Origin: Methylobacterium sp. CB376
Lineage (GTDB): Bacteria; Pseudomonadota; Alphaproteobacteria; Rhizobiales; Beijerinckiaceae
NCBI RefSeq assembly: GCF_029714205.1
Contig: NZ_CP121648.1
Location: 6,388,501-6,452,500 of the forward strand
Direction of reading: 5' to 3'
Length of the DNA: 64,000 nucleotides
The translations under genes and the position numbers were made by a program. Numbering within the stretch: the first letter of the stretch is position 1; every line of letters begins with the position of its first letter. Below, piece by piece: positions 33,080 through 64,000 of the stretch. The notes below the pieces were generated by a model. That model saw nothing but the letters and a program-made list of their open reading frames with translations. It searched no databases and was not told where the DNA came from.

Positions 33080-33275
33080 TCCGCTGTCCGGACGATCGCG
33101 TCCGGAAACCCGCGCGGCGCCTGAGCGACGCCGACATCCGCATGGCGACGCGATCCGTCGGATGTCGTATGCCACGCCCGCGCGGCGCTCGAGCGAGGCC
33201 GAAATCCGCATTGCCGGAATTGGAGATGGCGACGCAGTCCGTCGGATGTCGGATGACGCGCGGCTTCGCGGGCGC
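33077..33275 (+). repeat. Dispersed repeat, copy 3 (tandem double)
   Basis: Opens with TGATCCGCTG, whose TGA is the stop of the monooxygenase gene. It then has a palindrome TCCGGACGATCGCGTCCGGA (33087-33106), the CCCGCGCGGCGCCTGAGCGA module, CATCCGCATGGCGACGCGAT and CCGTCGGATGTCGTATG. A second, diverged unit follows from about 33172 (CCCGCGCGGCGCTCGAGCGA) through GGAGATGGCGACGCAGTCCG to GATGACGCG. The inverted copy at 57221-57343 is the closest relative. Confidence 0.8.
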
Positions 33276-51792: not shown

Positions 51793-52083
51793 ACGCCCGC
51801 GCTCCTGGCGCCCGTCCCGAGCGTCCCGTCCCGGCGCCTGCCATCCTGGCGTGCGCGTAACCAAACCTGCGCGCAACTGGGGAAAACCGGGTCCGCCGCC
51901 ACCGCGAGTGTCGCTTTTATGCGCCACCGGCGGCCAAAGTCGGCACCAGGGGCCGCCGAGGCGGTGCCGTCCAGGTCGCCATTCGCTAAGGTTCGCGTGA
52001 GGCGGGCGAATGCGGAATCGGACCGTTCGAGCGCGCATGCGTGCGGAACGGTCCGGCCATTGGCCTCACAGGGTGAGTGCAGC

Positions 52084-53475
52084 GTGACCGACAGATCCCA
52101 TCGGGCATATCGCGGGCTTCGGCTCGGCGGCCTTGCCGGCCTCGCGCTCGCGCTGGCCGGTCAACCGGCGGCGGCCGAGACGCTGGAGACCGCGCTGGCC
52201 CGCGCCTATGCGGGCAACCCGACGCTCAATTCGCAGCGGGCCGGCCAGCGGGCGACCGACGAGAACGTGGCCCGCGCCCTGTCGGGTTACCGCCCGACGG
52301 TGAGCGGCACCGCCGCCATCGGCGTGCAGAATACCAGCGGCGCCCAGGGCGGGGTGCGCATCAGCCAGACCATCGTGCCGGGCAGCGCCGGGCTGACCGT
52401 CAACCAGACCCTGTTCAACGGATTTCTCACCGACAACCAGACGCGGCAGGCCGAATCGCAGGTGCTCGGGGGGCGCGAGAGCCTGCGCAACGTCGAGATG
52501 ACGATCCTGTTCAACGCGGCCCAGGCCTACATGAACGTGCTCGCCGACACGGCGACGCTCGAACTCAACCGCAACAACGTCGAGGTCCTGGAAGAGCAGC
52601 TGCGCCAGACCCGCGACCGCTTCAACGTCGGCGAGGTCACCCGCACCGACGTGGCCCAGGCCGAGGCGCGGCTCGCCGGCGCCCGCTCGCAGGTCAGCCT
52701 CGCGGAATCGAACCTGCGCACCAGCATCGCCACCTACCGGCAGGTCGTCGGCGTCGAGCCGCGCCAGCTCGCCCCGGGCCGCCCGCTGGACCGCTTCGTC
52801 CCGGGCAACCTGACCGCCGCGATCGATATCGGCCTGCGCGAGCACCCGCAGGTCATCTCGGCCCTGCACGCCGTGGATGTCGCCGAGGCCCAGGTCAAGA
52901 TCGCCGAGGCCGCCCTCTACCCGACGGTGAGCGTCAGCGGCACCGTCCAGAAGCTCTTCGACCAGCAATTCGCCCATACCGAACTGTTCGAGGGCGCCGT
53001 CACGGCGCGGCTCAGCGTGCCGCTCTACCAGGGCGGGGTCGAGTACGCCGCGATCCGGCAGGCCAAGGAGCAGGTGGGACAGACGCGCATCCAGGTCGAG
53101 ACCTTCCGCGATCAGGTCCGCGCGGCGATCGTCACCGCCTGGGGCGGGCTCGAAGCCGCCAAGGCCCGGGTCATCGCCCAGCAGGCCCAGGTCCAGGCCA
53201 ACGAGGTCGCGCTCAACGGGGTGCGCGAGGAGGCCCGGGTCGGCCAGCGCACCACCCTCGACGTGCTGAACGCGCAGCAGGAACTGCTCTCGGCCCGCGT
53301 CAACCTGATCGCCGCCCAGCGCGACCGCGTGGTCAGCTCCTACCAGGTCGTGCAATCGATCGGCCGCCTCACCACGGCCTTCATCAACGTGCCGGTCGCC
53401 CAGTACAGTGCCAAGCTGCACTTCGATCAGGTCAAGGATCTCTGGTACGGGGTGCGGACGCCGGACGGCCGCTGA
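52084..53475 (+). CDS. tolC: TolC-family outer membrane efflux protein
   Basis: 463 residues, GTG start at 52084. A signal peptide (about 1-28, cleavage near AAA-ET) is followed by two OEP repeats. The first begins TLETALARAYAGNPTLNSQR and includes VNQTLFNGFLTDNQTRQAES; the second includes RLSVPLYQGGVEYAAIRQAK and GQRTTLDVLNAQQELLSARV. The paired YxGG/FNGF and NPxL patterns are typical of TolC. It forms the outer-membrane channel for type I secretion and drug efflux; no inner-membrane pump lies beside it. Confidence 0.94.
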   Translation: MTDRSHRAYRGLRLGGLAGLALALAGQPAAAETLETALARAYAGNPTLNSQRAGQRATDENVARALSGYRPTVSGTAAIGVQNTSGAQGGVRISQTIVPGSAGLTVNQTLFNGFLTDNQTRQAESQVLGGRESLRNVEMTILFNAAQAYMNVLADTATLELNRNNVEVLEEQLRQTRDRFNVGEVTRTDVAQAEARLAGARSQVSLAESNLRTSIATYRQVVGVEPRQLAPGRPLDRFVPGNLTAAIDIGLREHPQVISALHAVDVAEAQVKIAEAALYPTVSVSGTVQKLFDQQFAHTELFEGAVTARLSVPLYQGGVEYAAIRQAKEQVGQTRIQVETFRDQVRAAIVTAWGGLEAAKARVIAQQAQVQANEVALNGVREEARVGQRTTLDVLNAQQELLSARVNLIAAQRDRVVSSYQVVQSIGRLTTAFINVPVAQYSAKLHFDQVKDLWYGVRTPDGR

Positions 53476-54195: not shown

Positions 54196-54389
54196 GGGGA
54201 GCGGCGCCGAGGCGCCGCCCGCCCCGGCGCCGAGGGAGAGTTGACGGGAGGGCCGGGTTCGGCTGAAAGCGCGTCGTGAGGGGGTCGGCCGCCCGCATGG
54301 GCCCGGCCCCGTTCCGATTTCGACGCGTTTTCGCCGGCGCGCCGCGGCCCGAAGCCCGGCCCGCGCGCCCCGGCGCGGGTGGCCCCGTC

Positions 54390-57101
54390 ATGATGGACAA
54401 GACCTTCGATCCCGCCGCCGTCGAGGCGCGCATCGCCGCCGAGTGGGAGGAGGCGCAGGCCTTCCGGGCCGGCCGGCCCGACCGCGCCGACGCCGCCCCC
54501 TACAGCATCATGATCCCGCCGCCGAACGTGACGGGCTCGCTGCACATGGGCCACGCCCTCAACAACACCCTGCAGGACGTGCTCGCCCGCTTCGAGCGCC
54601 TGCGCGGCAAGGACGTGCTCTGGCAGCCCGGCACCGACCATGCCGGCATCGCCACCCAGATGGTGGTGGAGCGCCGCCTCGCCGAGCACCAGCAGCCCGA
54701 CCGGCGCGCCCTCGGCCGCGCCGAATTCGTGCGCCGGGTCTGGGCGTGGAAGGCGGAATCCGGCGGCACCATCGTCAACCAGCTCAAGCGGCTCGGCGCC
54801 TCCTGCGACTGGTCGCGCGAGCGCTTCACCATGGACGAGGGGCTCTCGAAGGCCGTCGTCAAGGTCTTCGTCGACCTGCACGCGGCGGGGCTGATCTACC
54901 GCGACAAGCGCCTCGTGAACTGGGACCCGCGGTTCCAGACCGCGATCTCGGACCTGGAAGTGCAGCAGGTCGAGGTGAAGGGCCATCTCTGGCACTTCGC
55001 CTACCCGGTCGTGGACCAGGAGGGACGGGAGACCGGCGAGACCATCACGGTGGCGACGACGCGGCCCGAGACCATGCTGGGCGACGCGGCCGTGGCGGTG
55101 CACCCCGAGGACGAGCGCTACCGGGCCCTCATCGGCCGGACGGTGCGCCTGCCCCTCGTCGGCCGCCTGATCCCGATCGTGGCGGACAGCTACTCCGACC
55201 CCGAGAAGGGCACCGGCGCGGTCAAGATCACCCCGGCCCACGACTTCAACGACTTCGAGGTCGGGCGCCGGCACGGGCTGCCGCTCATCAATGTCCTGGA
55301 TCAGGAAGCCCGCATAACCCTCGACGGCAACGAGGCGTTCCTCGAGAACGCGTCCCCCGAGCCGGAGGCGCTCGCCCTGCACGGCCTCGACCGCGCGGAG
55401 GCCCGCAAGGCGGTGGTCGCGCTGATGGAGGCGCGCGGGCGGCTCGTCGCGGTCGAGCCCAACACCCACGCGGTGCCGCACGGCGACCGCTCGGGGGTGG
55501 TCATCGAGCCCTACCTCACCGACCAATGGTACCTGGACGTGAAGCCGCTGGCCGACCGCGCCATGCAGGCGGTGCGCGACGGCCGCACCCGCTTCGTGCC
55601 CGAGGCCTACGAGAAGACCTACTTCCAGTGGCTGGAGCACATCGAGCCCTGGTGCATCTCGCGCCAGCTCTGGTGGGGCCACCAGATCCCGGCCTGGTAC
55701 GATCCGGACGGCAACGTCTTCGTGGCGGGGAGCGAGGAGGAGGCCCTGGAGAAGGCCGCCGCCCGGCACGGCCGCCCGGTCGCCCTGCGCCGCGACGAGG
55801 ACGTGCTGGACACGTGGTTCTCCTCGGGCCTGTGGCCCTTCTCGACGCTGGGCTGGCCCGAGGCGACGCCGGAACTCGCCCGCTACTACCCGACCAGCAC
55901 CCTGGTGACGGGGTTCGACATCATCTTCTTCTGGGTCGCCAGGATGATGATGATGGGCCTTCACGCGCTGGGCGAGGTGCCGTTCCGGACCGTCTACATC
56001 CACGCCCTCGTGCGCGACGAGAAGGGCGCCAAGATGTCGAAGTCCAAGGGCAACGTGGTCGATCCCCTCGACCTCGTCGACCGCTACGGCGCCGACGCCC
56101 TGCGCTTCACCCTCGCGGCCATGGCGGCGCAGGGGCGCGACATCAAGCTCTCGGTGCAACGCGTTGAGGGATATCGGAACTTCGCCACGAAGCTGTGGAA
56201 CGCGGCCCGCTTCGCCGAGATGAATGGCTGCCGGATCGCGCCGGATTTCCGCCCCGAGGCGGCGCGCGAGACCCTGAACGCCTGGGCGCTCGGCGAGGCC
56301 GCCCGCGCGGTGGCGGAGGTGACGGCGGCGCTCGACGCCTTCCGGTTCAACGACGCCGCGGCCGCCGCCTACCGCTTCGTGTGGAACGTCTTCTGCGACT
56401 GGTACCTCGAACTCGCCAAGCCCGTGCTGCAAGGCGAGGCCGGCCCGGCGCAGGACGAGACCCGCGCCACCGTGGCCTTCCTGATCGACCAGATCTGCAT
56501 CCTGCTCCATCCCTTCATGCCCTTCCTGACGGAGGAGCTCTGGGCGACGAAGGGCCGGGAGGCGGGGCTGGAGCGCGGGCTCCTGGCGCTCGGGCGCTGG
56601 CCGGATCTCGGGCGCCTGGGCCGGCCGGAGGCCGAGGCCGAGATCGGCTGGGTGGTCGACCTCGTCTCGGAGATCCGCTCGGCCCGCTCGGAGACGAACG
56701 TGCCGGCCGGCGCCCAGATTCCCCTCGTGCTGGTCGACCCGAGCGAGGCGGTGCGGGCGCGCCTGGGCCGCTGGGGCGAGACCATCCGGCGCCTCGGGCG
56801 GATCGGCGAGATCGGCGCCGTCGCCGAGAGCCCGGCCAAGGCGGTCCAGCTGCTGGTGCGCGGCGAGGTGGCGGCCCTGCCCCTGGAGGGCGTGGTCGAC
56901 CTCGCCGCCGAGGTGGCGCGCCTGCGCAAGGAGGAGGGCAAGCTGGAGGGGGAGATCGGCAAGATCGACGCCAAGCTCGCCAATGCCGACTTCCTGGCCC
57001 GCGCCCCCGAGGAGGTGGTCGAGGAGCAGCGCGAGCGCCGCGAGGCCGCCGCGGAGCGCCTCGCCAAGGTGCGCGAGGCCCTGGCCCGGCTGGAGGGATA
57101 G
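54390..57101 (+). CDS. valS: Valine--tRNA ligase
   Basis: Charges tRNA-Val. The 903-residue class I synthetase has the HIGH box as [14 protein letters not shown] in [20 protein letters not shown], the CP1 editing domain ([20 protein letters not shown]), and [12 protein letters not shown]-terminal coiled coil ([36 protein letters not shown]) is typical of ValRS. Start ATG 54390 (or the adjacent 54393); the frame is open upstream to 54276 without similarity. Confidence 0.96.
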
Positions 57102-57220
57102 GCCTTCGCCGGCTCGGCGAGGCAGAGCGGCAGGCGAGCCGATTCACGGCCCCGGAGGCGGGGCGGCGATCCCTCGCCCCTGGCGCGCCGCCCCGGCGGG
57201 TGGGACGGTTGTTCGAGACG

Positions 57221-57343
57221 GAATACGACATCCGACGGATTGCGTCGCCATCTCCCATGTCGGCCATGCGGATGTCGGCGTCGCTCACGCGCCGCCCGGG
57301 CGTGTCAGACGCTGTCCGCAAGTGATCGTCCGGACAGCGGATG
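57221..57343 (-). repeat. Dispersed repeat, copy 6 (inverted)
   Basis: Read on the minus strand it gives the modules of copy 3 in the same order: ATCCGCTGTCCGGACGATCA, then a CGGGCGGCGCGTGAGCGACG module, CCGACATCCGCATGGCCGAC and GGCGACGCAATCCGTCGGAT. It ends 8 bases before the DUF2459 start and so occupies the probable promoter or leader. Confidence 0.75.
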
Positions 57344-57351
57344 ACGCCCCC

Positions 57352-58119
57352 ATGGACACTCCCGCGCCCTCCCGGCCGACGCGTCGCCGGCTCGGCCTCA
57401 CGCCGGCCCTCCTGCTCGCGGCCCTGGCCCTGTGGATCGCCGCCACGGCCCGGCCCGGGGATCCGGCCCTCTTCCCGCCGGGCGGCGGGGAGGCGGTGAC
57501 CATCTCCCTCGTCGCGAGCGGCTGGCATTCGGGGCTCGTCCTGCCGCGGGACGCGCTGGCGCGGGCCGCCGCCCGGGAGGGGGCCGGGGCGCTCCTCGGC
57601 GTGACCGAACGCTTCGGCGCCTACGCCGCCCTGGAGGTCGGCTGGGGTGACGCGGGCTTCTACCGGCAGGTGCCGACGCTCGACGCCCTCGACTGGCGGC
57701 TCGCGCTCGCGGCCCTGTTCACGCCGGGCGGGCGCTCCTCCGTGCTCCACGTGGTCGGGATCGACGGCGAGCCCGCCGCACGCTTCCCGGCCGCCCGGAT
57801 CGTGCGGCTGCGCCTGTCGCCGCGGGGCTTCGCGCGGCTCGCCGCCGCCCTGGCGAGGAGCTTCCGCCTGCGCGACGGGCGCCCCGTCGAGGCGGGGCCC
57901 GGCCTGTACGGCCCGAGCCTGTTCTACGAGGCGGAGGGGCGCTTCAGCCTGCTCCGGGTCTGCAATCACTGGTCCGGAGAGCTGCTCCACGCGGCGGGCC
58001 TGCCGGTCCTCCCGGCGCTGCACCTCCTGCCGGTCGGCCTTCTCCTCGACCTCGCGCGCCAGGGGATCTGGCCCGGCCGGGACGTCGAGGCCGCCCCGGC
58101 TGGCGGCCGGCGCGGGTGA
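57352..58119 (+). CDS. DUF2459-family membrane-anchored protein
   Basis: 255 residues from ATG 57352. An N-terminal membrane segment (LGLTPALLLAALALWIAATA) is followed by the DUF2459 features ISLVASGWHSGLVLPRD, ALEVGWGDAGFYR, VLHVVGI, and VCNHWSGELLHAAGLP with conserved Cys, His and Trp. Members are sometimes called TIGR02117 proteins and are linked to polyhydroxyalkanoate loci in other bacteria, but no activity is known. The periplasmic Cys/His/Trp cluster hints at an enzyme. Confidence 0.8.
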   Translation: MDTPAPSRPTRRRLGLTPALLLAALALWIAATARPGDPALFPPGGGEAVTISLVASGWHSGLVLPRDALARAAAREGAGALLGVTERFGAYAALEVGWGDAGFYRQVPTLDALDWRLALAALFTPGGRSSVLHVVGIDGEPAARFPAARIVRLRLSPRGFARLAAALARSFRLRDGRPVEAGPGLYGPSLFYEAEGRFSLLRVCNHWSGELLHAAGLPVLPALHLLPVGLLLDLARQGIWPGRDVEAAPAGGRRG

Positions 58120-58187
58120 GGCATCCGGCCGGTCCCGCCCTCTCGCCGCAAATCCGCCCGGCCGCGACGGAGCCGTCATGGCAGGGA

Positions 58188-58345
58188 TGATACGGGATCC
58201 GCTTGATCGAAGCGGGTCCCGGATCACGAGCCCGCGCGGCGCCTGAGCGCGGCGCCTGAGCGCGGCGCCTGAGCGACGCCGAGATCCGCATGGCCGAAAT
58301 CGGAGATGGCGAAGCCATCAACCGGATGGCGTATGACGCGCCCGA
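58188..58345 (+). repeat. Dispersed repeat, copy 7, with internal 13-bp expansion
   Basis: Starts TGATACGGGATCCGCTTGAT with the complementary arm AAGCGGGTCCCGGATCA. The GCGCGGCGCCTGA piece is then triplicated in tandem (58234-58246, 58247-58259, 58260-58272). It continues with ATCCGCATGGCCGAAATCGG and GAAGCCATCAACCGGATGGC as in copy 1. Unlike copies 1, 3, 4 and 5 it does not touch a stop codon. Confidence 0.8.
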
Positions 58346-58394
58346 ATGTCGGCTTCGCCGGCGCCGCGCCGTGACCCGCGTCGCCCGAGCGGAT

Positions 58395-58686
58395 TCCACT
58401 TCCCACATTCTGCGCCAGCACACCTATCTACTGGTTTATTATTTTTATACGCTGTTTCTCACCGAGATGCAGAAATATACGCGCATCGCGAGACAGTTTT
58501 ACCCGCTCTATAAATTTTACCATTGACGTTTCAGCGCGAAGGCAACCTGTCATCGCAACCTTCCGGAACGCCGCTATCTCAATCAATACTGTGAGTACCG
58601 GCGTTTACGAGTTGCGAAAACTCTGCCGATCAGGCAATCCTACGGCGCCTCGCGCATCGAGGCGTTCGAAGACCTGCGAGACCAGC
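58395..58686 (+). promoter_or_regulatory. AT-rich island upstream of the cysteine-rich peptide gene
   Basis: This stretch is far more AT-rich than any other in the window, with runs such as TTTATTATTTTTATACG (58434-58450) and CTATAAATTTTACCATTGAC (58506-58525). It probably contains the promoter of the downstream gene and may be of foreign origin. TTGACG at 58521 is a candidate -35 box, but the -10 is unclear. Confidence 0.5.
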
Positions 58687-58974
58687 ATGCTCACTCGGCC
58701 CCTCTCGGCGGCCATCGCCGCCGCCTGCCTCCTCGCCGTCGGCGCCCTGCCGACCGGCGCCCTCGCGATGGGGGTCCCCTCCGCCGCATCCGGCCTCGGC
58801 AATACGCTGATCCAGCAGATCCAAAAGAAGAAGCCGGCAGGCGCAAACAGGAACTGCAATCAGAAAGCCGTCGATCAATGTGCGACCAACAAGGGAAAAT
58901 GCATGAATAGCGGCAAACCCAATTGTCAGAGCGATTACGTCGCCTGCGTCAACTGGAGCGGGTGCAATTACTGA
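58687..58974 (+). CDS. Small cysteine-rich secreted protein, unknown function
   Basis: 95 residues from ATG 58687. The signal peptide is MLTRPLSAAIAAACLLAVGA with probable cleavage near ALA-MG. The mature part has a short basic stretch (QIQKKKPAGANRN) and then six cysteines spaced C-x7-C-x6-C-x7-C-x6-C-x5-C, ending WSGCNY, which suits three disulfide bonds. The frame is open upstream to 58591, but this start begins the leader. Its base composition is lower in GC than its neighbours. No family is recognised; a secreted peptide, toxin-like or adhesion role is possible. Confidence 0.7.
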   Translation: MLTRPLSAAIAAACLLAVGALPTGALAMGVPSAASGLGNTLIQQIQKKKPAGANRNCNQKAVDQCATNKGKCMNSGKPNCQSDYVACVNWSGCNY

Positions 58975-59455
58975 GGGCACGAACGGGCCGCAAGCGCGGT
59001 GATGCTCCGGCCGCCTCGCCATCGTGAAGGGCAGGACGACGGCGTCACCCCTTGAGACCGGGACGTCCTGATCGTCGGCCCACGGCGCCGGAGCGAGGCG
59101 CGCGGGCTGCGTGAGGCAGGGTCCGGGGTCCGAAGCGGCGGGCGCCGTCCCGTCCTCGTCGGGCTCGATCGAGACCCGCGATGCCGAGATGCTTCGTTCC
59201 GGAAAACAGTATTCGGACAGCATTCGCGGCCGCCATGCCTTGACAGCACGGACCGCCTGAAAAACCCTTGGGCGGCGACGACTCGCCCATGACCGCGACG
59301 GGAGCGGCGCGCCAGCGGTCGCGCGGACCGCCGTGGCTGCCGGAGGCCCCGCCGCAGGGCGGCGCGCCGGCACCGCGAGGCGCTGCCCGCCACCTCGTCC
59401 TCGACCGACCACGCTCGGGGTCCGACCCTGGCGCTTCACCCCGGGGTGCACTTCG
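58975..59455. other. Spacer between the cysteine-rich gene and the P450 gene
   Basis: About 480 bases. Long minus-strand frames here have no domain similarity. A TTGACA at 59239 followed by an A-run (CTGAAAAACCC) is the only promoter-like sequence noted. Base composition returns to high GC by 59280. Confidence 0.4.
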
Positions 59456-60766
59456 ATGCGACAGGTTCCGGGCTCCTACGGCCCTCCGCTGCTCAAGACC
59501 CTGTTCGATACGGTGGACTTCCTGGTCGTGAGCGGCTGGGAGGAGTTCTTCGCCCGCCGCCGCCGCCGCCACGGCAGCACGGTCTTCCGGGTCAACCTGT
59601 TCAAGCCGACCGTGGCGGTGCTCGATCAGACCGGGATCGGGGCGCTGTTCGGCGATGCGGACCTGATCCAGGATTACGGGTTCGGCTGGGCGGTGCCGCC
59701 CCTGCCCCTGGTCGGCGGCGTCCCGCCGAGCATCTTCGGCAGCGGCGAGGCCCATGACGGCCCCAAGCGCCTCTACCTGCGGCTGCTCGCGCGGCGCGCG
59801 GAGCGCCTGGAAGCGGTCTTCGCCGAGACGTTCGCGGAGGTCGCGGCCCGCTGGCGCGCGGCCCCCGGCTTCTCCTTCGCGGACGGGATCGAGGATCTCG
59901 TCGCCACCTTCGTGGGCCGCTGGCTGATCGGCGCGGCGCTCGACCCGGCCGACATCCGCCTCGTCTACAACCACATTTTCACGCAGCGCCTGACCGCGGT
60001 CACGCAATGGCTGCCCTGGTCGAATTACGCCCGCTCGCGCCTCGCCTACGGGCGCCTGCTCGCCGCCGTGCGGGGGGCGCCCGACTTCCCCGAGATCGCC
60101 GCGATGGCGGCCGAGGAGGGTTTGCCCGACCCCGAGGTGGTGGCCAAGCAGCTCACCTTCCTGATCGGCATGAACAGCTTCCTGGGGCTGCAGAACCTGC
60201 TGAAATCCCTGGTCGGCGAGTTCGCGCTCCACCCCGCCTGGCAGGAGGAGGTGCGCCGCGAGGCCGCCGCGCAGGCGGGACGGGGCGCCACGCCGGTCCT
60301 CGACCGGGTGATCCGCGAGACCCTGCGCCTGCACCCGCCGGTCTTCTTCGTGTTCGGGCGGGCCACGCGCGACCGCGTCCTCGACACCGAATCCGGCTCC
60401 TTCGCGATCCGCCGGGGCGAGCTCGTGATGGGCGTGATCCCCTTCGCGCAGAACGACCCCGCCCACGTGCCGCGGCCCGAGCGCTTCGACCCGGACCGCT
60501 TCCTCGACCCGGCGACGGGCGGGCGTCCCCTGATCTGGCCGCGCGGCCTCGAGACCGCGACCGTGGCGGCGCGGGACCGCACCTGCCCGGGCAAGGACGC
60601 CGCCTTCGCGACCGCCCGGCTGTTCTGCACGGCGCTGCTGCGCGACCACGCGTGGAGCCTCGCCGCGCCGCCCGCCTGGGACCGGCACCGCTTCTCCCTG
60701 AACGTGGCCGCCCCGAAGGGGCCCCTCACGGTTGAACGCTTCGTGAGAAAGGAGCAGACCGGTTAG
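59456..60766 (+). CDS. CYP74-like cytochrome P450 (fatty-acid hydroperoxide-metabolising type)
   Basis: 436 residues, no membrane anchor. The start QVPGSYGPPLLKTLFDTVDF, then WEEFFARRRRRHGSTVFRVN, resembles the IPGSYGLPF...STVFRTN start of plant allene oxide synthases and hydroperoxide lyases. The K-helix has ExxR (E288, R291). The I-helix reads FLIGMNSFLG with Asn240, where CYP74 has FN(S/T)WGG, and lacks the oxygen-activating Thr of ordinary P450s. The haem loop WPRGLETATVAARDRTCPGK (Cys377) has the extended CYP74 form WSNGxET...NKQCxGK. It probably rearranges hydroperoxides without O2 or a reductase. Which product it makes cannot be read. Confidence 0.8.
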   Translation: MRQVPGSYGPPLLKTLFDTVDFLVVSGWEEFFARRRRRHGSTVFRVNLFKPTVAVLDQTGIGALFGDADLIQDYGFGWAVPPLPLVGGVPPSIFGSGEAHDGPKRLYLRLLARRAERLEAVFAETFAEVAARWRAAPGFSFADGIEDLVATFVGRWLIGAALDPADIRLVYNHIFTQRLTAVTQWLPWSNYARSRLAYGRLLAAVRGAPDFPEIAAMAAEEGLPDPEVVAKQLTFLIGMNSFLGLQNLLKSLVGEFALHPAWQEEVRREAAAQAGRGATPVLDRVIRETLRLHPPVFFVFGRATRDRVLDTESGSFAIRRGELVMGVIPFAQNDPAHVPRPERFDPDRFLDPATGGRPLIWPRGLETATVAARDRTCPGKDAAFATARLFCTALLRDHAWSLAAPPAWDRHRFSLNVAAPKGPLTVERFVRKEQTG

Positions 60767-60885
60767 GATTGCGGTCCCGGCGCCAAGCCGGGACCGGCCG
60801 CCGGGCGCGGCCCAACGGGGAGGCGTGCGTTGAGCGTGAGGGCCGCGGTGCGCAGGAGCGCCGGTGCCGCGCGGGGCGGAAGCTG

Positions 60886-63800
60886 ATGTCGGCCCGGCAC
60901 GCTCGGGAGCGGCGCGCCGAGGCGGCGGGCCTGTCCGGCCCGCCCGAACGGCGGCAGCTCACCGTGATGTTCTGCGACCTCGTCGATTCGACGGCCCTGG
61001 CCTCGCGCCTCGACCCGGAGGATCTCCGCGACGTGCTGCGGGCCTACCAGGCCCTCTGCGCCGAGATCGTGCGGCGCCACGGCGGGACGGTGGCGCAGTT
61101 CCAGGGCGACGGCGTCGTCAGCTACTTCGGCTTCCCGGTCGCCCAGGAGGACAGCGTCGAGGCGGCCGTGCGGGCGGGGCTGGAGATCCTGCGCCGGATG
61201 TCCTCCCTGCGCACCCCGCCCGAGACCGCCGGGGGCCCGCCCGCGGGGCCGGCCCAGGTCCGCATCGGCGTCGCGACGGGCCTCGTCGTGGTCGAGGACG
61301 CCGGCTCGGGCAGCGCCGGGGTGGTCGGGCAGGTGCCGAACCTCGCCTCGCGCATCCAGGCGGTCGCCTCGCCCGGCACCCTCCTGATCGCGGACGCCAC
61401 CCGCCGCCTGCTCGGCTCCCTGTTCGACCTGACCGATCTCGGCCCCCACCGGCTCAAGGGCATCGCCGAGGCGGTGGTGCTGTGGCGGGTCGAGGGGGCC
61501 CGCGAGGACGCCGCCCGCTCCGATGCCCGCCGCAACGGCAGCGTCCATGTCGGGCGGGACGAGGAACTCGCCCGACTCTCCGCCGCCTGGGAGGAGGCCA
61601 AGCGGGGAAGCGGGCAGGTCGTGCTGGTGGGCGGCGAGCCCGGGATCGGCAAGTCGGCCCTGCTGCGGGCCTGGACCGCCCGGCTCGCGGAGGCGGAGGT
61701 CATCCGCATCGGGCTCCAATGCTCCCCGCGCCACACCCACAGCCCGCTCTACCCGCTGGTCGCCCATCTGCGCCGCATCGCCCGGATCGCCCCCGCGGAT
61801 CCGCCCGCGGCGCGCCGGGAGAAGCTGGAGCGGCTCCTCGCGCCGGAGCGCCGGGCCGAGGGGGCGGAGCTCCTCGCGCATCTCCTCTCCGTGGCCCTCG
61901 ACGGCGCCCCGGCCGGGCCGGAGCCGACCGCCGACCAGCGCAAGGCCGCGACCCTGGCCCTCCTCGCCGAGGAGGTGATCGGGCTCGCCGCCCGCCGCCC
62001 CGTGGTGATGGCCGTGGAGGACGCGCAATGGGCCGATCCGACCACCGAGGAGCTGGCCCGGCTGGTCATCGGGCGGCTCGCCGGCCGGCGGCTGCTCCTG
62101 CTCGTCACCGCGCGGCCCGAATACCGGCCGGCCTGGGCCGAAGCGGCTGGCCTGCGGCCGCCCTGGGCCGAAGCGGCCGGCGTGCACCGGCTGTCCCTGT
62201 CGGGCCTCGCCCCCGGGGAGGCGGAGGATCTCGTGCGCGGCGTGGCGCGCGGCCGGCCCCTCGCGCCCGAGGCGCGGCGCGCCATCGTCGCCAAGGCCGA
62301 CGGCGTGCCGCTCTTCATCGAGGAGCTGACCAGCGCCGTGCTGGAGGAGCGCGACGCCGCGGACCGGCCGCGGGACGGGGGCGGCGAGGCGCCGCGCGTG
62401 CCCGCGACCCTGCAGGACATCATCATGGCGCGCCTCGACCGCCTCGGCCGCGCCAAGCCCGTGGCCCAGGTCGGGGCCGCCCTCGGGCGCTCCTTCTCGC
62501 GGCGCATGCTCGAGCGGGTCGCCGAGCGGGACGAGGAGGAGATCGCCGCGGCGCTGGCGGAGATCGTCCAGGCCGGCCTCCTGCTGGAACAGCCCGGCGG
62601 CGCCGGCGCGACCTACCAGTTCAAGCACGCGCTGGTGCAGGATGCCGCCTACGAGAGCCTGCTGCGGGCGAGCCGCCGGGCGCTGCACGGCCGCATCGCC
62701 GCGGTGATCGAGGAGGATTGCCCGGACCTCGCCGAGACCGAGCCCGAGACCCTCGCGCATCACCTGCGCGGGGCGCGGGCCTTCCTGCGCGCCGCCGCCG
62801 CCTCCCTGCGGGCCGGGCAGCGGGCGGCGGCACGCTTCGCCAACCCGGAGGCGATCCAGCATTTCCGCGCCGGGCTGGACGATCTCGCGCGGGCGGACTC
62901 GACACCGGCGGACTTGGCACGGGCGGACTTGGCACGGGCGGACTTGGCACGGGCGGACTTGGCACAGGCGGACTTGGCGGAGCCGGCAGCGGCGGCCCAC
63001 GGCCCGCTCGCGGCGCGGCTCCATCTCGGGCTCGCCCAATCCTTCTACGTGGTGAAGGGGCCCGCCCACGGCGATACGGTGGCGGCCTATGCCCGGGCGC
63101 ACGACCTCGCCGCGCATCTCACCGACCCGGAGGAGCGCTTCGCCCTGCTCTGGGGCGTGTTCTCCGGCCACCATTTCGCGGCCCGCTTCGGGCCGGCGGA
63201 GGCCTCGGCCCGGGAGGCCCTGGCCCTGGCGCGCGGCGCCGGCGACCCGACCCATCTCTGCCAAGCCCACCGCATGCTGGGCTATGTGGGCTTCTTCCGC
63301 GGCGACCTGCCGGGCGCGAGGGCGCATTTCGGCGAGGTCCGCCGCCTCTACCGGCCCGACCCTCACCGGGGCCTGGCACCGATCTTCGGGGCGGATTGCC
63401 AGGTCGGGGCGGCGGGGTTCGAGAGCGTGCTCCTCTGCGTCCAGGGGCATCCCGACGAGGCCGTGGCGATGACGGAGGCGAACCTGCGCGACGCGCGGCG
63501 CCTCGGCCATCCGGCGAGCATCGGCTGGGCCTACGCCGCGGCGGCCTACGTCCACCATTACCGCGGCGACCGGGCCGCGACCGGGGCGGTGGCGGCGGAG
63601 GGCTTCGCCTATTGCCGGGCCCACGCCATCGCGGCCTGGGGCCTGCACTGCAAGGTGTTCCTGGCGTGGTCGGGCGCGACCGGGCCCGAGCGGGCCGACC
63701 GCGCCGCCGAGATCCTCCGCGACATCGCCGATGCGGCGACGCGCACCCGCCTGGGCCTGCCGCAGCTGCGCGGGCTCGCCGCCGAGGCGCTCCTCCTGTG

Positions 63801-64000
63801 CGGGGACCCAGCACCGGCGCGGGAGCAGGTCCGGATCGCCCTCGACGAGATCGCCGAGACGGGCCAGGCCGTGTTCGCGCCGATGCTGCTGCGGCTGCGC
63901 GGCCTCTGCGCCCTCGCCTGCGACGAGGGCGGGGCCGCCGACCGGCTCGGCGAGGCGGTCGCGGCGGCGCGGGCCGTGGGGGCGGACCTCCTGCGGGCGC
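60886..64000 (+). CDS. Class III adenylate cyclase / AAA ATPase / TPR signalling protein (partial)
   Basis: At least 1038 residues from ATG 60886, running off the right edge. A nucleotide cyclase catalytic domain (about 20-205) has LTVMFCDLVDSTALASRL (metal Asp) and FQGDGVVSYFGFP. An AAA_16 ATPase follows with Walker A GGEPGIGKSALL and Walker B VVMAVEDAQWAD. A helical TPR-like region continues to the edge. A run of six ADLAR-type pentapeptides (670-699) sits in the linker before the TPR part. Such proteins are thought to make cAMP or act as STAND-type switches in response to unknown signals. It lies 119 bases after the P450 gene on the same strand. Confidence 0.88.
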   Translation, partial: MSARHARERRAEAAGLSGPPERRQLTVMFCDLVDSTALASRLDPEDLRDVLRAYQALCAEIVRRHGGTVAQFQGDGVVSYFGFPVAQEDSVEAAVRAGLEILRRMSSLRTPPETAGGPPAGPAQVRIGVATGLVVVEDAGSGSAGVVGQVPNLASRIQAVASPGTLLIADATRRLLGSLFDLTDLGPHRLKGIAEAVVLWRVEGAREDAARSDARRNGSVHVGRDEELARLSAAWEEAKRGSGQVVLVGGEPGIGKSALLRAWTARLAEAEVIRIGLQCSPRHTHSPLYPLVAHLRRIARIAPADPPAARREKLERLLAPERRAEGAELLAHLLSVALDGAPAGPEPTADQRKAATLALLAEEVIGLAARRPVVMAVEDAQWADPTTEELARLVIGRLAGRRLLLLVTARPEYRPAWAEAAGLRPPWAEAAGVHRLSLSGLAPGEAEDLVRGVARGRPLAPEARRAIVAKADGVPLFIEELTSAVLEERDAADRPRDGGGEAPRVPATLQDIIMARLDRLGRAKPVAQVGAALGRSFSRRMLERVAERDEEEIAAALAEIVQAGLLLEQPGGAGATYQFKHALVQDAAYESLLRASRRALHGRIAAVIEEDCPDLAETEPETLAHHLRGARAFLRAAAASLRAGQRAAARFANPEAIQHFRAGLDDLARADSTPADLARADLARADLARADLAQADLAEPAAAAHGPLAARLHLGLAQSFYVVKGPAHGDTVAAYARAHDLAAHLTDPEERFALLWGVFSGHHFAARFGPAEASAREALALARGAGDPTHLCQAHRMLGYVGFFRGDLPGARAHFGEVRRLYRPDPHRGLAPIFGADCQVGAAGFESVLLCVQGHPDEAVAMTEANLRDARRLGHPASIGWAYAAAAYVHHYRGDRAATGAVAAEGFAYCRAHAIAAWGLHCKVFLAWSGATGPERADRAAEILRDIADAATRTRLGLPQLRGLAAEALLLCGDPAPAREQVRIALDEIAETGQAVFAPMLLRLRGLCALACDEGGAADRLGEAVAAARAVGADLLRA
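62893..62982 (+). repeat. 15-bp tandem repeat encoding an A-D-L-A-R pentapeptide array
   Basis: Six units of 15 bases (GCGGACTTGGCACGG consensus) encode ADSTP, ADLAR, ADLAR, ADLAR, ADLAQ, ADLAE. The three middle units are identical in DNA, so the expansion is recent. Confidence 0.9.

Follow-up and report, generated by a model that had tools for sequence, protein, structure and literature searches.

The hydroperoxides on which plant CYP74 enzymes act are supplied by lipoxygenase. In fungi, DOX-CYP fusions (linoleate diol synthases, DOX-AOS and DOX-EAS) are described as a COX-family haem dioxygenase followed by a hydroperoxide-using P450 with an HxCxG haem motif, and it has been proposed that they stem from a bacterial ancestor that was already fused (PMC13049297). 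A cyanobacterial linoleate 10S-dioxygenase (10S-DOX), of which FtdsF and GxDAFxQA are given as motifs (PMC13049297), is described in one chain with a hydroperoxide-using haem protein, in that case a catalase-like lyase. The peroxidase activity of DOX is said in the same source to be little known (PMC13049297), and bacterial cyclooxygenases are termed putative sequences in PMC4420034. CYP74-clan trees already include sequences from Methylobacterium sp. 4-46 and M. nodulans (PMC8124189, PMC10813956), the named clan members being the Methylobacterium sp. 4-46 CYP74 WP_012335549.1 and the M. nodulans hydroperoxide lyase (MnHPL) WP_015932840.1 (PMC10813956, PMC8124189). The latter species is credited with a CYP74 that cleaves 13-HPOD (PMC9410191). 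For a bacterial COX/DOX-CYP74 fusion, we recognised no report in the open-access literature, subscription papers lying outside the scope of the search, and the fusion could easily have been noticed when the M. nodulans lyase was cloned. The finding of that enzyme was reportedly published in 2008, in a study of plant AOS in Nature.

Here we describe a P450 gene of Methylobacterium sp. CB376 that belongs to this clan, and compare its locus with that of M. nodulans, where the same kind of P450 forms the C-terminal part of a fusion protein.

A CYP74-clan P450 in the window

The window, by which we mean the whole stretch of 64,000 nucleotides that was analysed, comes from a genome of 7.69 Mb in two contigs. 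The features relevant to the locus are listed below, with identities given to the corresponding M. nodulans locus (L128).

51919..53475, + strand: TolC-family outer membrane protein, common to M. nodulans (83% to L128)
54276..57101, + strand: valS, upstream neighbour common to M. nodulans (NCBIfam valine--tRNA ligase; 93% to L128)
57106..59413, no strand: about 2.3 kb of DNA without an M. nodulans counterpart, at the dioxygenase position (DNA homology break)
57229..58119, + strand: DUF2459/TIGR02117 frame within the replaced stretch, start approximate (Pfam 6e-33; TIGR02117 below cut-off)
58591..58974, + strand: small Cys-containing ORF of 127 aa within the replaced stretch (no Pfam match)
59414..59455, + strand: in-frame fusion-linker remnant before the P450 ATG (residues 28-41 of the 477-aa frame from 59333)
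59456..60766, + strand: CYP74-clan cytochrome P450, 436 aa (PDB search, Pfam, tree, alignment, Foldseek)
60769..63999, + strand: guanylate-cyclase/AAA regulator, downstream neighbour common to M. nodulans, leaving the window (Pfam; 70% to L128)

The P450 ORF begins with an ATG at 59456, its stop codon ends at 60766, and it is enclosed in a 477-aa open frame that starts with a GTG at 59333. Over 12.5 kb that include this gene, the window is 99.3% identical to Methylobacterium sp. WSM2598, whose copy of the P450 gene differs by a single, nonsynonymous base. Compared with M. nodulans, the dN/dS of the P450 gene was 0.36 (valS control, 0.14), and part of this signal may be older than the loss of the dioxygenase described below.

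The Pfam p450 match reached 54.6 bits and covered residues 253-402 only, and among the NCBIfam profiles no family came near its cut-off with this protein. By PDB sequence search, the top three distinct sequences were all CYP74A (3.1e-29 to 5.9e-28), with CYP120 next (4.9e-10). The same ranking was obtained by structure: using the AlphaFold model (pLDDT 93.8, with 44 sequences in the alignment), Foldseek returned six CYP74A entries first (3.5e-21 to 6.5e-20) and then CYP120 (2.4e-14). The generic P450 residues, ExxR and the Cys ligand, are present.

The initial annotation had related the protein to plant CYP74 on the strength of the segments PGSYG, HGSTVFRVN, GMNSFLG and GLET...CPGK, all of which are present in the ORF, beyond chance. 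We compared motif columns in an alignment of the bacterial family (104 rows) with plant CYP74 (15 rows) and with other bacterial P450s (11 rows). The I-helix Asn (N240 in GMNSFLG) was Asn in 103/104 family and 15/15 plant rows and a gap in 11/11 other bacterial P450s, while Gly244 was Gly in 104/104 family and 15/15 plant rows at a column where 10/11 other bacterial P450s have Thr, so the reported I-helix Asn without the usual Thr is borne out. The haem loop from Trp361 to Cys377 spans 17 residues in 103/104 family rows (18 in one) and in 15/15 plant rows, compared with 10 residues in 10/11 other bacterial P450s and 13 in the remaining one, and Val296 of the PPV motif is kept in all 104 family rows. 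At the presumed F/L toggle column, the window P450 and 89/104 bacterial rows carry Gly, and the 15 plant rows carry Leu. The axial Asn is described as dispensable in two fungal enzymes (PMC13049297), so it is no proof of CYP74 chemistry.

A careful P450 tree was built from 55 rows, comprising 29 bacterial family members, 15 plant CYP74 rows hand-picked from those listed (algal and animal members excluded) and 11 other bacterial P450s, three of them from the window genome. A branch with 100/100 support parted the 29 bacterial family rows together with the 15 plant rows from the 11 other bacterial P450s. The phylogeny that had been proposed as a check on placement in another bacterial P450 family thus groups the window P450 with plant CYP74, in agreement with the PDB and Foldseek top matches. 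An ordinary bacterial P450 family was ruled out by sequence, tree, motifs and fold. By BLASTP, identity between the window P450 and the plant rows listed was 25-31%, below the more than 40% amino acid identity given as the rule for a CYP family (PMC10813956), so the protein is a member of the clan and not of the CYP74 family; the relationship first proposed holds at the clan level, by tree, fold and motifs, but does not extend to the family. Collectively, sequence, fold, tree and active-site columns argue strongly that the window P450 belongs to the CYP74 clan. It resembles plant CYP74 in its fold, I-helix Asn, PPV motif and 17-residue haem loop, whereas it differs in the low identity, in the Gly at the toggle column and in the link of its bacterial relatives to a COX-like dioxygenase.

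This membership is essentially published already. The link to M. nodulans, which the initial annotation had mentioned, agrees with the published clan trees cited above, and WP_012335549.1 and MnHPL WP_015932840.1 very probably represent the window gene itself and its ortholog, because M. nodulans has one family match, with a P450 domain 75% identical to the window P450, at the same locus.

Relatives of the P450 fused to a COX-like dioxygenase

Among 57 protein matches to the window P450, P0003, P0004, P0006 and P0049 are named prostaglandin-endoperoxide synthase 2, and P0044 bears a PF03098 domain. A scan of genome contigs retained 80 of 116 loci. Six of them (L009-L014) match the query over no fewer than 417 residues at 37% or higher, the remaining 74 giving weak or short-stretch matches. 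Three of these six, from Methylocapsa palsarum, Mesorhizobium loti and Marivivens niveibacter, have a COX-like domain followed by the P450 in one frame. With the M. loti fusion as protein query, 788 proteins were matched, and the 120 listed contain at least 59 two-domain relatives (P0058-P0116) in which the two Pfam domains occur together and the P450 part gives a match to the window P450. The dioxygenase comes first in 57 of these 59 listed fusions and the P450 in two (P0111 and P0113), which implies either repeated joining of the two domains or a swap in their order. In P0111 and P0113, which stand outside the dioxygenase tree and the residue and motif counts, a CYP74-type P450 is N-terminal and the COX-like domain C-terminal. 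Four further COX-like proteins of 911-943 aa (P0140, P0141, P0147 and P0156) have no CYP74-type P450 match and, lacking a match to the window P450, stand outside the P450 trees. One of them, P0140, represents another kind of bacterial P450-COX fusion: its N-terminal P450 is an ordinary one, with CYP142 as the best match among solved structures, and its COX-like domain is C-terminal.

The M. nodulans protein (P0074) is a single frame of 969 aa in which a COX-like haem domain with 10S-dioxygenase motifs precedes the P450, and a frame in genome G030 is identical to it over 941 aa. MnHPL and the window P450 thus share a locus, but the P450 domain is the second half of a fusion in M. nodulans and stands alone in the window. 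A model of the fusion (pLDDT 87.2) gave COX-2 as the first structural match (3.3e-30) and CYP74A from rank 36; its pTM of 0.60 leaves the relative placing of the two halves unsure. Tyr385, Tyr348, Trp387 and His388 of COX are kept in 59/59 fused and 57/57 stand-alone dioxygenase rows, whereas the distal His207 of COX is replaced by Asp in 58/59 fused rows (one gap) and 56/57 stand-alone rows (one Val). LYxWH occurs in 59/59 fused rows, FAQxxTD[SG]F in 56/59 fused and 53/57 stand-alone rows, and GxDAFxQA in 28/59 and 29/57 in its strict form and in 56/59 and 39/57 in a loose form. The distal FtdsF and terminal GxDAFxQA motifs of the cyanobacterial enzyme recur in most bacterial dioxygenase domains, the second of them in its loose form, a likeness confined to motifs; the partner in the same chain is a CYP74-type P450 here, in contrast to the catalase-like lyase there. 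Compared by description with the fungal DOX-CYP fusions, the domain order is the same, while the P450 half is CYP74-type in bacteria. Judged from sequence, the fused dioxygenase would leave its hydroperoxide for the P450.

Among stand-alone P450s, 7/45 lie on a contig exactly equal in size to one that carries a stand-alone dioxygenase (57 dioxygenase contigs; expected 0.13), and from these equal sizes, which are not positions, we infer that the two genes are neighbours.

Loss of the dioxygenase half in the window lineage

The order at the M. nodulans locus is tolC, valS, fusion (8703-11612 of L128) and cyclase, and that in the window is tolC, valS, DUF2459 frame, small ORF, P450 and cyclase. 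DNA homology with L128 ends at window position 57105 and resumes at 59468, so that about 2.3 kb in the window sits where M. nodulans has 1.7 kb. At the protein level, a tblastn match to L128 starts at residue 28 of the 477-aa frame (73% over 455), that is, homology restarts 14 residues ahead of the P450 ATG, within the fusion linker. The gapless linker match is short, with 7/18 residues identical (P = 0.0004 from 5000 shuffles; the range for six alternative lengths was 0.0004-0.0018). No DNA-level homology was detected over the 300 bases that precede the ATG, 357/500 shuffles scoring as high. A dioxygenase remnant elsewhere in the window was sought and rejected (best E 1.0). The dioxygenase half is absent from the window P450 chain, which stands alone.

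In the P450 trees, the window protein and P0002, a stand-alone protein of the same form and 76% identical to it, nest with two Methylobacterium fusions with support of 96-100, and a constraint holding together the three stand-alone proteins of that Methylobacterium group was rejected (p-AU 0.00065). The shared locus, the linker remnant and the nesting among fusions together show that fusion came first at this locus and that the dioxygenase half was lost; we conclude with strong support that the window P450 descends from a fused form. In Ensifer sp. LC11 (L012, 7571-7969), a dioxygenase that precedes a stand-alone P450 is cut down to its N- and C-terminal ends, the core being missing. Across the P450 tree, fused and stand-alone labels change at least 8 and 9 times by starred branches, in a tree with poor, long-branched outgroup rows and with some stand-alone rows that may be truncated because their contigs are short.

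Two further observations concern the DNA of this region. A 73-nt repeat, whose copies are 82-86% alike, is inverted around the DUF2459 frame (window 57223-57295 and 58262-58334), with further copies at window 33182-33254 and at 7929-8001 of L129, the latter adjoining a distant COX-like gene (L008); it is a possible recombination site. The cyclase/AAA gene contains, at window 62890-62978, six 15-base repeats that encode pentapeptide-like ADLAR units.

Candidate peroxide sources and distribution of the family

The initial annotation had left the source of hydroperoxide open; a candidate is now available in the COX-like dioxygenase that, in relatives, is fused to the P450 or encoded on a contig of equal size. 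The lipoxygenase search that it had proposed for the rest of the genome was run and found none, but the method matched none of 14 control genomes, so absence is unproven. The only PF03098 match in the window genome is L008, 4.6 Mb from the P450, which matches COX-1 at 7.7e-56 and keeps Tyr385, Tyr348 and His388. L008 forms a clade apart from the fused dioxygenases with a gene of Ensifer sp. LC11 and one of Methylobacterium G078 (100/97). That L008 is the split-off half of the window gene was ruled out, as it lies in another clade. Of 10 frames scanned in its neighbourhood, three gave Pfam matches: a prephenate dehydratase, an FAA hydrolase and L008 as the peroxidase. The G078 genome, which is 70% complete, has this COX-like gene of the L008 clade without a P450 match. 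In all, PF03098 matches occur in 31/111 Methylobacterium genomes, many of them in frames of great length, the longest near 3600 aa, and these long-frame peroxidases differ in kind from the COX-like genes.

Of six genomes examined that carry the family P450, five also contain a PF03098 match. The sixth, Rhizobacter, lacks one altogether, which means that the P450 can occur without a dioxygenase partner in its own cell. The P450 family is rare, being found in 3/111 genomes of the genus and, with at most four candidates per genome scored, in 2/397 of the family, 1/385 of the class and 1/398 of the phylum, the window genome counted each time. Among plasmids, no relative of the window P450 was matched at 1e-20.

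Discussion

The explanation that we consider probable is that the window gene encodes a hydroperoxide-using CYP74-clan P450, orphaned from a bifunctional oxylipin synthase and now fed by host peroxides or by a distant dioxygenase. Its reaction, substrate and present peroxide source are predicted ones. A fatty acid hydroperoxide would serve as both substrate and oxygen donor, with the O-O bond split homolytically and the resulting radical rearranged, needing neither O2 nor a reductase. In the bifunctional ancestor, an N-terminal haem dioxygenase of COX/10S-DOX kind would have produced the hydroperoxide for use by the C-terminal P450. In the window lineage, unrelated DNA replaced the dioxygenase half while the P450 half was kept, and the P450 may now act on hydroperoxides of the plant host or of the distant COX-like gene. 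Because Gly occupies the presumed F/L toggle, where the 15 plant rows have Leu, a lyase or epoxyalcohol output appears likelier than an allene oxide.

Narrower readings differ in what feeds the enzyme. It may work alone on plant hydroperoxides in nodule or leaf, either detoxifying them or making host-active aldehydes, a serious possibility towards which we do not quite lean: 13-HPOD, which the M. nodulans enzyme reportedly cleaves (PMC9410191), is made by plant lipoxygenase; next to the P450, the window species and Ensifer LC11 have lost or reduced the dioxygenase half, and Rhizobacter has none; and no lipoxygenase was found in the window genome. That last search, however, matched 0/14 controls, and the fused ancestor carried its own peroxide source. 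It is somewhat less probable, though conceivable, that a bacterial oxylipin pathway has been split, with L008 feeding the P450 in trans as successor of the lost half. L008 keeps Tyr385, Tyr348 and His388, matches COX-1 and is the sole PF03098 match of its genome, and Ensifer sp. LC11 offers a parallel, with a P450 that stands alone, the reduced dioxygenase before it and a single COX-like gene elsewhere that belongs to the L008 clade; yet the 4.6-Mb distance, the position of L008 outside the fused-dioxygenase clade, its neighbours, which reveal no link, and the presence of such a gene in G078 without a P450 match all weigh against this arrangement.

Two other readings were weighed. A decaying, functionless relic of the fusion might be suspected, since half of the parent gene is gone and the family is so rare in the genus, but we regard this as quite unlikely, given the open frame with its catalytic residues, the dN/dS of 0.36, the confident model (pLDDT 93.8) and the existence of P0002, another stand-alone protein of this form. 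A conventional bacterial monooxygenase dependent on NAD(P)H and O2, with which the generic ExxR and Cys ligand would be compatible, seems highly improbable in view of the tree, the fold and the I-helix, and no redox partner was seen among the neighbouring frames scanned. We retain the orphaned, hydroperoxide-using P450 as the preferred explanation.

The careful tree also bears on plant CYP74, as its 15 plant rows fall within the bacterial diversity (92/84), beside seven bacterial rows that include five fusions. However, plant CYP74 sits on a long branch (2.5), and a tree with all bacteria in one clade was not rejected (p-AU 0.38). It is a doubtful suggestion that plant CYP74 arose from a bacterial, dioxygenase-linked P450 family and was paired with lipoxygenase only later, in plants. 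By the same unlikely reading, the older setting of CYP74 would be a haem protein that makes and rearranges lipid peroxides without lipoxygenase.

What appears to be new here, as far as the open-access literature shows, is the fusion context and the orphaning of the P450, clan membership being essentially known already. The bacterial proteins provide a counterpart to the fungal DOX-CYP fusions, and a possible source of hydroperoxide for bacterial CYP74 is the COX-like dioxygenase of the same chain rather than a lipoxygenase. This predicts that the M. nodulans lyase has a native substrate other than the 13-hydroperoxide, perhaps a 10-hydroperoxide, and the window gene represents a natural test of the P450 half acting alone.
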